Assembly (NCBI GenBank): GCA_903827955.1
Contig: CAIKKJ010000168.1
Location: 1-58,852 of the forward strand
From: an uncultured Verrucomicrobia subdivision 3 bacterium
GTDB lineage: Bacteria; Verrucomicrobiota; Verrucomicrobiia; Limisphaerales; UBA11358
Reading direction: 5' to 3'
DNA length: 58,852 nucleotides
Part shown: positions 4,697 to 58,852 of the stretch, piece after piece
How positions within the stretch are numbered: the stretch's first letter is position 1
How the letters are laid out: each line of letters starts with the position of its first letter
Notes under the pieces: generated by a model
Database searches by the model: none
The model's input: only the letters and a program-made list of their open reading frames with translations
Told to the model about the DNA's origin: nothing
Position numbers and translations under genes: made by a program

Positions 4697-5428
4697 ATGG
4701 GACGCCAATGGCTTCATGCTAAACGATTGGTCGCCGGCCTCAAAAAAGGCCGCACGACCGGCAAACTGGTCCGCGAAATTTCCGTGGCCGCCAAAATGGG
4801 CGGCGCGGATATTTCCTCCAACGCGCGGCTTTTCACCGCCGTGGAAAAAGCGAAGAAGGACAGCGTCACCAAGGATGCCATCCAGCGCGCCATCAACAAA
4901 GGTGCGGGCATCGGCGATGAAAAACTCATCATGGAGCACGTCGTGTTCGAGGGCTACGCCCCGCACAAAGTTCCGCTCATCGTCGAAGTTTACACCGACA
5001 ACGTGAATCGCACCGCGCCGGAAGTTCGCGTGCTTTTCAAAAAGGGACAACTCGGCACGGCGGGCAGTAATAAATTTTTGTTCGACCACGTCGGCCTTGT
5101 CGAGGCGCATCATCCGGACGCAAACATTGACCGCGAAGGTGCAGCGATTGAAGCGGGTGCCAATGAAGTTGAGATACTTACGCATCAGCAAAATGACGAT
5201 GTGCCAGAAGGCGCGACTGGTGCAAAATTTGTTTGCGAACGCACAGCCGTAGCCACCGTTTCCAAATGGCTCGCGGCGAATGGCTGGACGGTAGTGACGA
5301 GCGAAATCGGCTACGTTCCAAAGCAATTTCCTGAACTCACCGAGGCGCAGCACGAGGAGGTCGGCGATTTTCTGCACTCGCTCGACGAACACGATGATGT
5401 GCATCGCGTCTGGGCAGCGGTGAAGTAA
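4697..5428 (+). CDS. YebC/PmpR/TACO1-family protein
   Basis: 243 residues from the ATG at 4697; in-frame codons further upstream would add a tail not seen in the family. Family signatures are clear: RLVREI-type helix, GGADISSNARLFTAVEKAK, KDAIQRAINKGAG, the EGYAP motif, and a final domain ending LDEHDDVHRVWA (usually LEDHDDVQ.V). The family acts as transcription regulators or as translation factors that ease ribosome stalling at proline runs. The N-terminus reads MGRQWLHAKRLV instead of the usual AGHSKWANIKHRK, so it is closer to the YeeN-like subgroup. It faces the cytochrome gene across a strong terminator. Confidence 0.88.
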   Translation: MGRQWLHAKRLVAGLKKGRTTGKLVREISVAAKMGGADISSNARLFTAVEKAKKDSVTKDAIQRAINKGAGIGDEKLIMEHVVFEGYAPHKVPLIVEVYTDNVNRTAPEVRVLFKKGQLGTAGSNKFLFDHVGLVEAHHPDANIDREGAAIEAGANEVEILTHQQNDDVPEGATGAKFVCERTAVATVSKWLAANGWTVVTSEIGYVPKQFPELTEAQHEEVGDFLHSLDEHDDVHRVWAAVK

Positions 5429-55606: not shown

Positions 55607-56845
55607 CTACATTTTCGATGCCTGTCCGCCAAGAATTTTTGCGAGCAGCCCCAGCGCGCGTTCGGCCTGCGTGACGTAGGGATTGGATTTGTCCCAGACA
55701 TAACCCGCGAGCACCGAGCACACTTGCCGCATGATGTCGGGATTTTTGTTCGCCGCGAAAAAAATCTGCGGCAGCTTGCCGTCATACCAGCCAGCAACGT
55801 AGGCGCGGAACGTGTTGATGCCTTGCATGACATGGTCGGCGTATTCCACCTGCCAGTCCACCGCCTCGCCGCGCAACTGCCGCGTCAGAACTTTTGCTGC
55901 GCGATTAGCCGACGCGAACGCCAGCGACACGCCGGAACTGAACACCGGGTCGAGAAATTCCGTCGCATTGCCCACCAGCGCGAACCGCTCGCCGTAAAGC
56001 TGTTTCACTGCGCACGAGTAGCCGCTGATGCGTTGCGCCGGCATGACGAATTCCATTTTCGCGAGCCGCTTCGCCGCGTTCGGATCGCCCATCAGAATCG
56101 CACGGAGCTGCGCGTCCGGCTCGCCGGGAAATTGTTTGAAAAACTCCGGCGTCGCCACCACGCCGACGCTCGTCTTGCCGTTGGAAAACGGGATGATCCA
56201 GATCCACGCGTCCTGTGGGTGCATGCAAATCCAGATTTTTCCCTCCTCGCGTTCCGCCGGGCGCGCGTCGCCGGTGACGTGCGTGAACAGCGACTCGCGC
56301 ACCGGAAAATTCGACGGCAATTCTAAATCCAGCAAGCGCGGCAGCACGCGACCGTAGCCGCTGCAATCTAAAATGAATTTTGCCCGCACCTGAAATTTTT
56401 CGCCGTCGGGCGCTTCAATCGTCGCTGACGCGTGCGTTGGCTCGAAGTTCACCGCCGTGACGCCGTGCCGATACAAAATTTCCACGCCGCGCGCCGCGAC
56501 CGCGTCCGCCAGCGCCTTGTCGAAATCCCCGCGCGGCACTTGGTAGGTGTATTTGAATCCGTCGGTGAACTGGTTGGCGAAATCGAAGTTGCAGGTCTCG
56601 TCGCCGCGCAAAAATACCGCGCCGTTCTTGCGCATGAAACTTTTTTGTTCGATGGCGTCCAGCAGCCCTGCCTCTTGCAGGAGCGTCATGCTGCTCGGCA
56701 ACATGGATTCGCCGATGACGAAGCGCGGGAAAGTCTGCTTCTCGACGACGAGCAGCTTGAAGCCTTCGCGCTGCAACAGCGCCGCCGCGCTTGAACCCGC
56801 CGGGCCAGCGCCAATGATTAAAACATCCGTCTCAACTGTTTTCAT
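55607..56845 (-). CDS. FAD-dependent halogenase/geranylgeranyl-reductase-like enzyme
   Basis: 412 residues. FAD-binding GAGPAGSSAAALLQREG, a VIGESMLPSS motif of the flavin halogenase group, and GNATEFLDPVFSSGVSLAFAS. Flavin-dependent enzymes of this kind occur in flexirubin and aryl-polyene pigment clusters. The WxWxIP-like segment here reads WIWIIP, so halogenation or another oxidation is possible. It is downstream of an ammonia-lyase gene on the minus strand, two bases apart, which supports a pigment role. Confidence 0.8.
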   Translation of the reverse strand: MKTVETDVLIIGAGPAGSSAAALLQREGFKLLVVEKQTFPRFVIGESMLPSSMTLLQEAGLLDAIEQKSFMRKNGAVFLRGDETCNFDFANQFTDGFKYTYQVPRGDFDKALADAVAARGVEILYRHGVTAVNFEPTHASATIEAPDGEKFQVRAKFILDCSGYGRVLPRLLDLELPSNFPVRESLFTHVTGDARPAEREEGKIWICMHPQDAWIWIIPFSNGKTSVGVVATPEFFKQFPGEPDAQLRAILMGDPNAAKRLAKMEFVMPAQRISGYSCAVKQLYGERFALVGNATEFLDPVFSSGVSLAFASANRAAKVLTRQLRGEAVDWQVEYADHVMQGINTFRAYVAGWYDGKLPQIFFAANKNPDIMRQVCSVLAGYVWDKSNPYVTQAERALGLLAKILGGQASKM

Positions 56846-56847
56846 GG

Positions 56848-58407
56848 TTATTTATCGAGACCAAAAATTTTCTGCACTTCATCCGACCGCAACAGCGCGG
56901 TCACATCTTCAATATCTTCAAACAGCGGTCGGTCGTTTTTCAGTTGCGGCGAAAGCTCGCGCACGAGGGCGTGGAGTTTTTTGTAGTCGCCGCCCATCAC
57001 TTTTTTCGGCGCGCGCAAATCCGCCGCCTGTATCAGCGCGAGCGTTTCGATGGCGAGAATTTTCCAACACAGCGGCAGCACCGTGCGTGTCATCTTCGCC
57101 GCGTGCGTGCCCATGCTGACGACGTCCTGGTTGTTTGCGTTCGTAGAAATCGTTTGGATGGACGCGGGCATTCCGAGCAGCCGCGCTTCCGCCGCGAGGG
57201 ACGTGGCGAGCAATTGCGCGCCGCCGAAGCCGGTGTTCAAACCCGGCGCGCCGCCCGCGAGCAACGGCGGCAGGCCGCGGCTGTAACGCCAGTTCACGAG
57301 CCGCTCAATCTGCCGCTCGGCAAGCAAGGCGACTTTGATCAACCCCATTCGCAAATAGTCGCTGACCATCGCGATTTGCTGGCCGTAAAAATTTCCGCCG
57401 TGGATGACCATTTGCGTGTCGGGAAAAATCAGTGGGTTGTCCGTGCTGGCGTTAAGTTCACGCGTGACGACTTCCGCGACGTGCCAGTGCGCCTCCTGAA
57501 ATGCGCCCAGAATCTGCGGCGCGCAGCGGAGCGAATACGGATCTTGAATTTCCGTGCCGGGGTCAACAGCCTTCGCGGTCGTGCCCCATTGGTGGTCGTC
57601 AATGCGCTTCGCAAAATCGGGATGCGTGCGGAGCGAAGTGCTGATGCGTTGCGCGACGAGCGACTGGCCGCGAAAGCCGCGCGCCTTGTGGATTTGCTGG
57701 CAGAGCGCCTCCGGTTCGCCATCGAGCACTTGGAAGAGGCACGCGGTCAGCAGTTCCGACCAGCGCAAAATCTTCTCCGCCTCGTGCGTGGCGAGCGCGG
57801 CGAGGCCGGTCATCACGGACGTGCCGTTTACGAGCGCGAGACCTTCTTTGCAGCGCAGTTGGAGTGGCTTGAGTTTGAATTTTTTCAGCGCGACCGTTGC
57901 CGAAAGGCGTTTTCCGCCAACATTCGCGTGTCCAAAACCGACGAGCAGCCGCGCCATGTGGGCGAGCGGAACGAGGTCGCCGCTCGCGCCGACGGAACCT
58001 TCGCTGGGGATTTCTGGCAAAATATTTTTGTTCAGTGCGGCGACGAGCAGTTCCAAAAGTTCCTCGCGCACGCCGGAAAAGCCGCGCGCCAACGTGTTCG
58101 CGCGGGCGAGCATGATGGCGCGGGTTTCGACTTCGGAAAAAAGCCTTCCCTGCCCGACGGACAAATGATGCAGCAGGTTGATCTGGTGTTGCGCGAGGTC
58201 GGCGTCACTCACGCGGAAGCCGCTCAACGGGCCAAAGCCGGTGTTGATGCCGTAGATCGCGCGCGGCTGCGCGGCGAGTTTTTCCACGAGCTGGCGGCTG
58301 CGGCGGATTTGCGGGCGCGCACCGGCGGCGAGCGTGCAGGAAATTTTCTGCGTAGAAATTTGCCAAGTCTCGGCGAGGGTGAGTTTATGTCCGTTCAGTG
58401 CGATCAT
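56848..58407 (-). CDS. Aromatic amino acid ammonia-lyase, probably tyrosine type
   Basis: 519 residues from the ATG at 58407; the longer frame adds a non-homologous start that overlaps the divergent gene. MIO prosthetic group from A141-S142-G143 (SVGASGDLVPLAHM). The selectivity region reads NLLHHLSVG (H81-L82), like the His-Leu pair of Rhodobacter tyrosine ammonia-lyase and unlike the Ser-His of histidine ammonia-lyases. Y52 (IYGINTGFGP) is catalytic. Likely product: 4-coumarate, the starter for flexirubin/aryl-polyene pigments. Confidence 0.85.
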   Translation of the reverse strand: MIALNGHKLTLAETWQISTQKISCTLAAGARPQIRRSRQLVEKLAAQPRAIYGINTGFGPLSGFRVSDADLAQHQINLLHHLSVGQGRLFSEVETRAIMLARANTLARGFSGVREELLELLVAALNKNILPEIPSEGSVGASGDLVPLAHMARLLVGFGHANVGGKRLSATVALKKFKLKPLQLRCKEGLALVNGTSVMTGLAALATHEAEKILRWSELLTACLFQVLDGEPEALCQQIHKARGFRGQSLVAQRISTSLRTHPDFAKRIDDHQWGTTAKAVDPGTEIQDPYSLRCAPQILGAFQEAHWHVAEVVTRELNASTDNPLIFPDTQMVIHGGNFYGQQIAMVSDYLRMGLIKVALLAERQIERLVNWRYSRGLPPLLAGGAPGLNTGFGGAQLLATSLAAEARLLGMPASIQTISTNANNQDVVSMGTHAAKMTRTVLPLCWKILAIETLALIQAADLRAPKKVMGGDYKKLHALVRELSPQLKNDRPLFEDIEDVTALLRSDEVQKIFGLDK

Positions 58408-58486
58408 CACAGAAAACTTGAAGGCAGATTCAACAACAAATGGCTTGAACACGCAAGCGCCGCAGTGTTTGCTGGCGCGAATTTTC

Positions 58487-58852
58487 ATGGCAGAAAAATC
58501 CGTCATCATCATCGGCGCGGGTCTCGCGGGTCTCGCGACGGGTTGCTACGCGCGGATGAACGGCTATCGCACGCTCATCGTCGAGCATTACAGCGAGCCG
58601 GGCGGAGTGGCGAAAGCGTGGCGGCGCGACGGTTACCTGATCGACGGCGGCGTGCATTATCTGATGGGCCACCGCCCCGGTCTCGCGTGCCACAAACTTT
58701 ACCGCGAGCTGGGCGTGTTCAAGGGACGGAAATTTCCCGACCTCGACGACTACGTTTATTTCATTGATGAGCCAACTGGCAACCGCGTCAGCTTCACGCC
58801 GGACCTGGATAAGTTGACGCGCGACCTCATCGCCATCGCCCCCGAGGACGCG
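58487..58852 (+). CDS. Phytoene-desaturase-like FAD oxidoreductase (3' end cut)
   Basis: 122 residues are visible from the ATG at 58487 with no stop before the window ends. MAEKSVIIIGAGLAGLATGC is an FAD-binding Rossmann start, followed by EPGGVAKAWRRDGYLIDGG, as in carotenoid desaturases and related oxidases. It is transcribed away from the ammonia-lyase with 79 bases between, and probably belongs to the same pigment cluster. Confidence 0.85.
   Translation, partial: MAEKSVIIIGAGLAGLATGCYARMNGYRTLIVEHYSEPGGVAKAWRRDGYLIDGGVHYLMGHRPGLACHKLYRELGVFKGRKFPDLDDYVYFIDEPTGNRVSFTPDLDKLTRDLIAIAPEDA

Follow-up and report, generated by a model that had tools for sequence, protein, structure and literature searches.

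The right edge of contig C168, from a genome of the phylum Verrucomicrobiota, very probably holds that end of an aryl-polyene (APE) pigment cluster at which starter-unit and tailoring enzymes are encoded. The stretch analysed here is the complete contig of 58852 bases (the window), and its right edge is the end of the contig. The genome comprises 3.86 Mb in 213 contigs, with completeness rated 95.09%. Three enzymes had been reported at this edge in an initial annotation: a halogenase-like flavoenzyme, an ammonia-lyase, and a desaturase-like flavoenzyme. Their open reading frames (ORFs) lie where they were said to lie, and their Pfam families agree. The features of the edge are as follows.

55607..56845, minus strand: Hal1, a halogenase-like flavoenzyme of 412 residues (Pfam PF04820, Trp_halogenase, and PF01494, FAD_binding_3; PDB matches; motifs).
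56848..58407, minus strand (ORF open to 58512): an aromatic amino-acid ammonia-lyase, probably of the tyrosine type, of 519 residues (Pfam Lyase_aromatic; H81-L82, Q427, and ASG).
58408..58486, no strand: 79 intergenic bases between the divergent lyase and desaturase-like genes (ORF positions).
58487..58852, plus strand: the N-terminal 122 residues of a CrtI-like flavin oxidoreductase (Pfam NAD_binding_8/Amino_oxidase; family taken from its full-length homologue in locus L003).
58712..58852, no strand: an assembly join, a 141-base overlap with the end of contig C125 (exact sequence match).

The lyase ORF (56848-58512, minus strand) matches Lyase_aromatic with 529.9 bits over the whole profile (positions 1-466). 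The Met at 58407 is its most likely start, since a longer gene begun at 58512 would run into the divergent plus-strand gene, which has its ATG at 58487. No sigma-70-like promoter was found between the divergent genes in a consensus scan of 58300-58600.

The initial annotation also predicted that ketosynthases would be found past the right edge, together with acyl carrier proteins and CoA ligases. This was borne out by two contigs of the same genome, C125 (5312 bases; locus L027) and C74 (22777 bases; locus L028 begins at its base 5000). Both carry ketosynthases, and C74 has one acyl carrier protein (ACP) and a ligase resembling the flexirubin ligase FlxY. C168 overlaps C125 by exactly 141 bases, right end against right end (C125 as reverse complement). 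An exact overlap of the same length ties the left end of C125 to C74 at its right end, and each overlap occurs solely on its two contigs within the genome. We infer that the paired overlaps are the trace of a graph assembler with a word length of 141 at a break. The full-length L003 oxidoreductase bridges the first join, with residues 1-122 matching the window edge and residues 76-501 matching C125:4035-5312 (minus strand). The genes on the two contigs are as follows.

C125, in order from the window: C terminus of the oxidoreductase; HEAT-repeat protein (opposite strand); LpxL-type acyltransferase; hotdog-like protein; ketosynthase; 194-residue partial ketosynthase-like protein.
C74, first part, in order: ACP (85 residues); 730-residue fusion resembling a ketosynthase and chain-length factor (KS-CLF); polysaccharide deacetylase; LolA-like protein; 167-residue protein with no match; ApeI-like dehydratase; AAT-family protein.
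C74, second part, in order: PlsC-type acyltransferase; 1275-residue MMPL-acyltransferase-methyltransferase fusion; GT2 protein; FlxY-like ligase; second halogenase-like protein, Hal2; FAD oxidoreductase; 417-residue ORF.

These genes include a type II ketosynthase, a chain-length factor, and an ACP on C125 and C74, an ApeI/P-type dehydratase on C74, and an acyltransferase, a LolA-like carrier, and an MMPL/RND exporter on the two contigs, all of which point to an APE cluster. The C125 ketosynthase has its Cys170, His300, and His334 motifs. The 730-residue protein has a ketosynthase domain, with PF13723 in its C-terminal half. Cys156 and His290 are present in the N-terminal half, where the second-His pattern had no match, and a motif search found no Cys motif in the C-terminal half. 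The ACP passes the cut-off of NF006617 (75.7 bits; cut-off, 70), and the ApeI-like dehydratase passes that of PF22818 (33.8 bits; cut-off, 28.5). The best NCBIfam match of the ligase (C74:8574-9989) is FlxY (NF053551), with 411.6 bits. The hotdog-like ORF gave a weak FabZ match and no Pfam family, and the 417-residue ORF gave a weak acyltransferase match and nothing else.

Several other features of these contigs and their surroundings were seen. The 1275-residue fusion (C74:11612-15439; L028:6613-10440) is a single ORF that joins MMPL exporter, PlsC-type acyltransferase, and methyltransferase domains, unlike the MMPL ORF of locus L017, which is fused to an LpxL-type acyltransferase. The 194-residue protein (L027:79-663) resembles just the central part of a ketosynthase (FabF positions 63-206) and recurs between ketosynthase and ACP in L003, L013, L014, L017, and L018. 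Farther out, C74 encodes a second AMP-binding ligase, a Na/H exchanger, and a repeat protein. Genes scanned leftward in the window (an LpxD-like hexapeptide protein, an AraC-type regulator, DprA, an HDOD protein, and others) showed no tie to the cluster.

The lyase, the ligase, and KS-CLF also go together across genomes. We searched 40 related genomes: the genome of the window, 24 others of its genus, and 15 from its order. Five of them (G000, G004, G017, G018, and G021) gave a lyase match. The same five alone hold a close ligase and a close KS-CLF, and the other 35 hold neither. The ligase query had matches in 36 of the 40, strong only in the five (506.6-1068.6 bits, 61-100% identity); the best in the other 35 was 119.5 bits at 28% identity, with short pieces up to 39%. 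KS-CLF, being a ketosynthase, found matches in all 40, with at least 445.8 bits in the lyase genomes and at most 250.6 bits and 48% identity elsewhere. Its N-terminal half is at least 55% identical in the lyase genomes; the C-terminal half is 45% identical in G017, and in G004 the protein is spread over two contigs. The chance of such exact agreement is 1.5e-6, or 1.2e-5 without the window's own genome, figures that ignore kinship, so that the true one is weaker. In G018 (C75 versus C56) and G021 (C150 versus C4), the lyase is on a different contig from the ligase and KS-CLF. Therefore, the tie between the three is not one of mere neighbourhood. In G004, there is one TGA inside the matched stretch of the lyase and one inside that of the ligase; the L004 copy of the lyase is an open frame of 539 residues.

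The residues of the lyase, its phylogeny, and its context make tyrosine the probable preference. Counted from the Met at 58407, it has H81-L82, which aligns with the His-Leu of PDB 2o6y. That entry is named "Putative histidine ammonia-lyase," and we take it to be the tyrosine ammonia-lyase of Rhodobacter sphaeroides (RsTAL). The alignment thus confirms the likeness to the Rhodobacter enzyme on which the initial annotation had relied. The ASG that forms the 4-methylideneimidazole-5-one group and both active-site tyrosine positions are also present. For the second selectivity position, we took the Q of NQDVVS, opposite the E of TSANQED in hut-annotated references; that this is the published position 2 is our assumption, from an alignment reading of RsTAL numbering. 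The Q of ALIQAADLR was ruled out as position 2, because hut-annotated lyases have Q there too, and it was given no weight.

According to PMC3992019, His at position 1 and Gln (not Glu) at position 2 mark tyrosine/phenylalanine lyases. The same paper describes FlxA, a proven tyrosine lyase, as having histidine-type residues at position 1. Therefore, position 1 alone is suggestive and no more. We compared both positions in an alignment of 50 sequences, leaving out five duplicate loci and the truncated L020. Near relatives came from a scan with six short peptide patterns, which gave 18 loci and is not a census; the nearest named ones were metagenome assemblies assigned to Verrucomicrobia or to groups inside the phylum. 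The window lyase is HL + Q427. HL + Q was also found in all 17 near relatives that cover the sites and in RsTAL, and three of three hut-annotated plasmid references are SH + E. A phylum search for PF00221 was positive in 28 of 387 genomes, the window's own included. Leaving aside L058, which repeats L015 of the HL clade, the 27 others come down to 26 proteins: SH + E (14), SH + Q (5), FH + Q (2), MH + Q (2), SH + K (1), AH + E (1), and HL + Q (1, the distant L064).

A midpoint-rooted FastTree phylogeny of the 50 sequences, with six reference proteins (FlxA itself not among them), placed the window lyase in a clade of 18 (support, 0.964). This clade joins RsTAL and L064 in a node of 20 (support, 1.0), and the group containing the three HutH references does not include the window lyase. 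The public titles of L007 (Akkermansia muciniphila) and L019 (Methylacidimicrobium fagopyrum) look misassigned, because both lyases are inside the window clade and the L019 lyase is that of G018, which is of the same genus as the window.

It is scarcely credible that the lyase is an ordinary HutH of histidine catabolism, at the edge of the cluster by chance. Its two best NCBIfam matches are indeed histidine ammonia-lyase models, the name under which the initial annotation expected it to be filed. However, both scores are below the curated cut-offs (489 bits against 524, and 477.6 bits against 539.15 for TIGR01225). On TIGR01225, the window lyase, L003, L015, and L018 all score 460-490 bits, whereas the three SH + E phylum homologues scanned (of 14) score 646-716 bits and pass. 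The SH + Q protein L053, at 489.7 bits, is also below the cut-off. HL + Q rather than SH + E, and the position outside the HutH reference group, argue against histidine as well. Hut genes beside the lyase had been named as what would overturn the tyrosine assignment. No urocanase was found in this 95%-complete genome by a search that was positive in 5 of 14 named control genomes, and the lyase is the genome's sole PF00221 match. Phylum lyases for which a histidine ammonia-lyase is the best model may be pigment enzymes in some cases, and the window clade is a set of candidate tyrosine ammonia-lyases.

A tyrosine 2,3-aminomutase, making beta-tyrosine for another natural product, is a little less remote and still very unlikely. 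The two kinds of enzyme have a common fold, and aminomutase scores are close behind: 408.2 bits on TIGR03832 (cut-off, 501), and 321 bits for the tyrosine aminomutase chains in PDB versus 331 for 2o6y. The lyase is also 41% identical to the plasmid-borne cmdF product, and the genome has a condensation-domain protein on contig C186. However, the lyase groups with RsTAL and L064 (support, 1.0) and not with the cmdF protein, which is SH + Q. The annotated C125 and C74 ORFs showed no nonribosomal peptide synthetase, and it is a FlxY-like ligase and KS-CLF that co-occur with the lyase.

A distant SH + Q lyase, 38% identical to that of the window, was seen at L097 (G409:C52, 8161-9663). Scanned under the handle L053, it gives 488 bits on the FlxA model (cut-off, 700), and it adjoins a FlxY-like ligase (37%) and a homologue of the ketosynthase KS1 (45%, partial). 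It is the one SH + Q locus of three with a FlxY-like ligase and a ketosynthase beside the lyase; L098 and L099 are without other cluster genes. L097 may represent another lyase lineage that serves the same purpose.

Gene order in relatives follows that of the joined contigs in part. The L003 lyase is 86% identical, and L003 has, on one contig, lyase, Hal1, desaturase, acyltransferase, hotdog protein, ketosynthase, partial ketosynthase, ACP, KS-CLF, and deacetylase, in the order of the joined contigs. In L018, the lyase is followed in that order by acyltransferase, ketosynthase, partial ketosynthase, ACP, KS-CLF, deacetylase, LolA, and AAT. Neighbours across the relative loci were counted by hand from tabulated rows, with identity thresholds of at least 40% for KS1 and at least 60% for Hal1. 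Hal1 is within 3 kb after the lyase in 13 of the 15 loci that have at least 1.3 kb downstream, the exceptions being L017 and L018. The desaturase-like gene is divergent and upstream of the lyase in 8 of the 16 loci whose upstream flank is 1.5 kb or longer. The initial annotation had called halogenase, lyase, and desaturase the typical combination for such pigments. All three genes are at the window's edge, the third with its start only, but "typical" is too strong for a desaturase-like gene that adjoins the lyase in half of these loci.

Some observations weigh against the APE reading. On the FlxA model (NF053541), the lyase scores 423 bits, short of the cut-off of 700, and the ligase's score falls short of the FlxY equivalog cut-off of 520. 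None of the ORFs annotated on C125 and C74 was recognised as a ketoreductase. In L018, the ligase, GT2 protein, and exporter are on the opposite side of the lyase compared with the joined contigs, and neither L017 nor L018 has a close Hal1 or desaturase beside the lyase. KS1 was found in 5 of the 18 loci (L003, L013, L014, L017, and L018). In the other 13, the fetched stretch holds no ketosynthase that reaches 40% identity; several of these stretches are short, but those of L005, L008, L010, L012, and L019 extend about 10 kb to either side. Therefore, the lyase module is often apart from the polyene genes.

Ketoreduction might be supplied by a second cluster in the genome. This is on contig C186 (8132-16168; L029), resembles a type II fatty-acid/polyketide cluster, and has a ketosynthase pair, an ACP, a FabA-like protein, and two short-chain dehydrogenases/reductases (SDRs). 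It also encodes the condensation-domain protein and an LpxL-type acyltransferase fused to a phosphopantetheinyl-transferase-like domain. In the relatives L011 and L014, one SDR family (typed in L011) is represented near the cluster.

Flavin-dependent halogenases have a signature of GxGxxG, WxWxIP, and a conserved lysine. Hal1 has all three: GAGPAG at 12, WIWIIP at 214, and lysine 73 in KNGA. Its best PDB match is 3nix, "Flavoprotein/dehydrogenase" (E 2e-137), which presumably comes from Cytophaga hutchinsonii. The next matches include 7fco (ChlB4), 5buk, 3e1t, 8zop, 5dbj (PltA), and 3i3l (CmlS), among others. A tentative alternative, less favoured than halogenation though far from negligible, is that Hal1 and Hal2 hydroxylate the ring or act as reductases. 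The pigment would then have hydroxy or methoxy groups and not halogen, and the O-methyltransferases next to Hal1 would act on the new hydroxyl. Hal1's NCBIfam scores extend to monooxygenase and geranylgeranyl-reductase families, with no cut-off reached among the best 25 models. Hal2 has no exact GxGxxG match, and an O-methyltransferase family (PF00891, typed in L009) adjoins Hal1 in L005 and L009-L013. However, Hal1 has the complete signature, Hal2 has its lysine in KPGA and WSWRIP, and the best PDB matches other than 3nix are named halogenases. As for the CrtI-like protein, its L003 homologue matches carotenoid desaturases weakly (4rep, E 4e-17), and our guess is that it acts on the polyene chain.

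The initial annotation had also offered the name flexirubin. That name fits the initiation enzymes only, namely the ligase, which resembles FlxY, and the probable tyrosine lyase; Hal1's closest solved relative, 3nix, with its presumed Cytophaga origin, is a further point in favour. Against the name, the FlxA and FlxY cut-offs are missed. DarB, assigned with DarA to the dialkylresorcinol half, is a KAS III-type enzyme (beta-ketoacyl-ACP synthase III). The genome has one PF08541 (KAS III) protein, which looks by eye like a housekeeping FabH and directly follows a PlsX-like ORF (also named by eye). Thus, the PF08541 search found no clear dialkylresorcinol ketosynthase; DarA was not searched for, and at about 95% completeness absence is not proof. 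Because the lone KAS III is FabH-like, the resorcinol half has no visible maker. For this reason, and because the lyase misses the FlxA cut-off, we do not file the cluster as flexirubin. A true flexirubin cluster, making an aryl polyene esterified with dialkylresorcinol as in Bacteroidota, is very improbable.

An APE pathway can be proposed from gene content, gene order, motifs, and co-occurrence, with enzyme activities and product as predictions. The lyase would deaminate L-tyrosine to 4-coumarate, and the FlxY-like ligase would activate it. The ketosynthase, the KS-CLF fusion, the ACP, and the hotdog dehydratases, with a ketoreductase from elsewhere, would then carry out malonyl extension to an aryl polyene. 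The halogenase-like enzymes and the methyltransferase domain may modify the aromatic ring, which is possibly halogenated. Finally, the acyltransferases, glycosyltransferase, MMPL exporter, and LolA-like carrier would attach the polyene to lipid and move it to the outer membrane. The coumarate starter suggested in the initial annotation is supported by the selectivity reading of the lyase and by the FlxY-like ligase and the ketosynthases on C125 and C74. The opening of the PMC9865893 abstract names no starter unit; with a predicted starter, the product of the cluster described here becomes testable. Evenly poised, in our judgement, is a broader proposal: that a Verrucomicrobiota lineage has its own APE route, in which an HL lyase separate from FlxA feeds a FlxY-like ligase and KS-CLF, the lyase-halogenase module can be unlinked, and the product is a halogenated or methoxylated coumaroyl polyene without resorcinol. 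The SH + Q and HL lyase lineages may serve the same step in it.

Arylpolyene clusters are reported for Verrucomicrobiota in PMC8692599, so the class is already known in the phylum. Among the matches listed from open-licence literature, we found no account of a verrucomicrobial pigment cluster with a tyrosine ammonia-lyase. Nor have we seen four of its traits described: a starter made from tyrosine, the lyase lineage with HL, the fusion of KS and CLF, and a lyase-halogenase module that is often unlinked.

The closest likenesses are to four known systems. According to PMC3992019, flxA-flxY of Chitinophaga pinensis has the same starter pair of tyrosine lyase and 4-coumarate ligase, along with ketosynthases, dehydratases, a polysaccharide deacetylase, an acyltransferase, LolA, a glycosyltransferase, and an exporter. 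It differs in that FlxA is histidine-type at position 1, where the window lyase is HL, and in the missed cut-offs and lack of a clear dialkylresorcinol ketosynthase here. The cluster described here has halogenase-like and CrtI-like enzymes beside the lyase, a point on which the flx gene tables were not compared; the same paper mentions chlorination among flexirubins. The xanthomonadin-type (arcuflavin) cluster of Azoarcus sp. BH72 (PMC3949708) is alike in its halogenase, polysaccharide deacetylase, LolA, exporter, acyltransferase, AMP ligase, ACP, dehydratase, and glycosyltransferase. Its starter comes from a XanB2-type chorismatase, whereas an ammonia-lyase is presumed here. The E. coli apeA-apeR cluster (PMC8253772) shares an ApeI-like dehydratase, a ketosynthase, a chain-length factor, an ACP, acyltransferases, a LolA-like protein, an RND/MMPL-type exporter, and a methyltransferase. 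However, ApeO and ApeC are separate there and fused here, and the ketoreductase ApeQ is in the cluster, whereas the ORFs annotated on C125 and C74 showed none. The E. coli starter is 4-hydroxybenzoate. A UbiC-derived 4-hydroxybenzoate starter was considered for the present cluster, and UbiC was not found in the genome by a search that, among 14 control genomes, was positive in E. coli alone; the search did not extend to chorismatases of the XanB2 type. For the lyase itself, the nearest known counterpart is RsTAL (PDB 2o6y), which is 41.5% identical over the aligned stretch and, like it, HL + Q.

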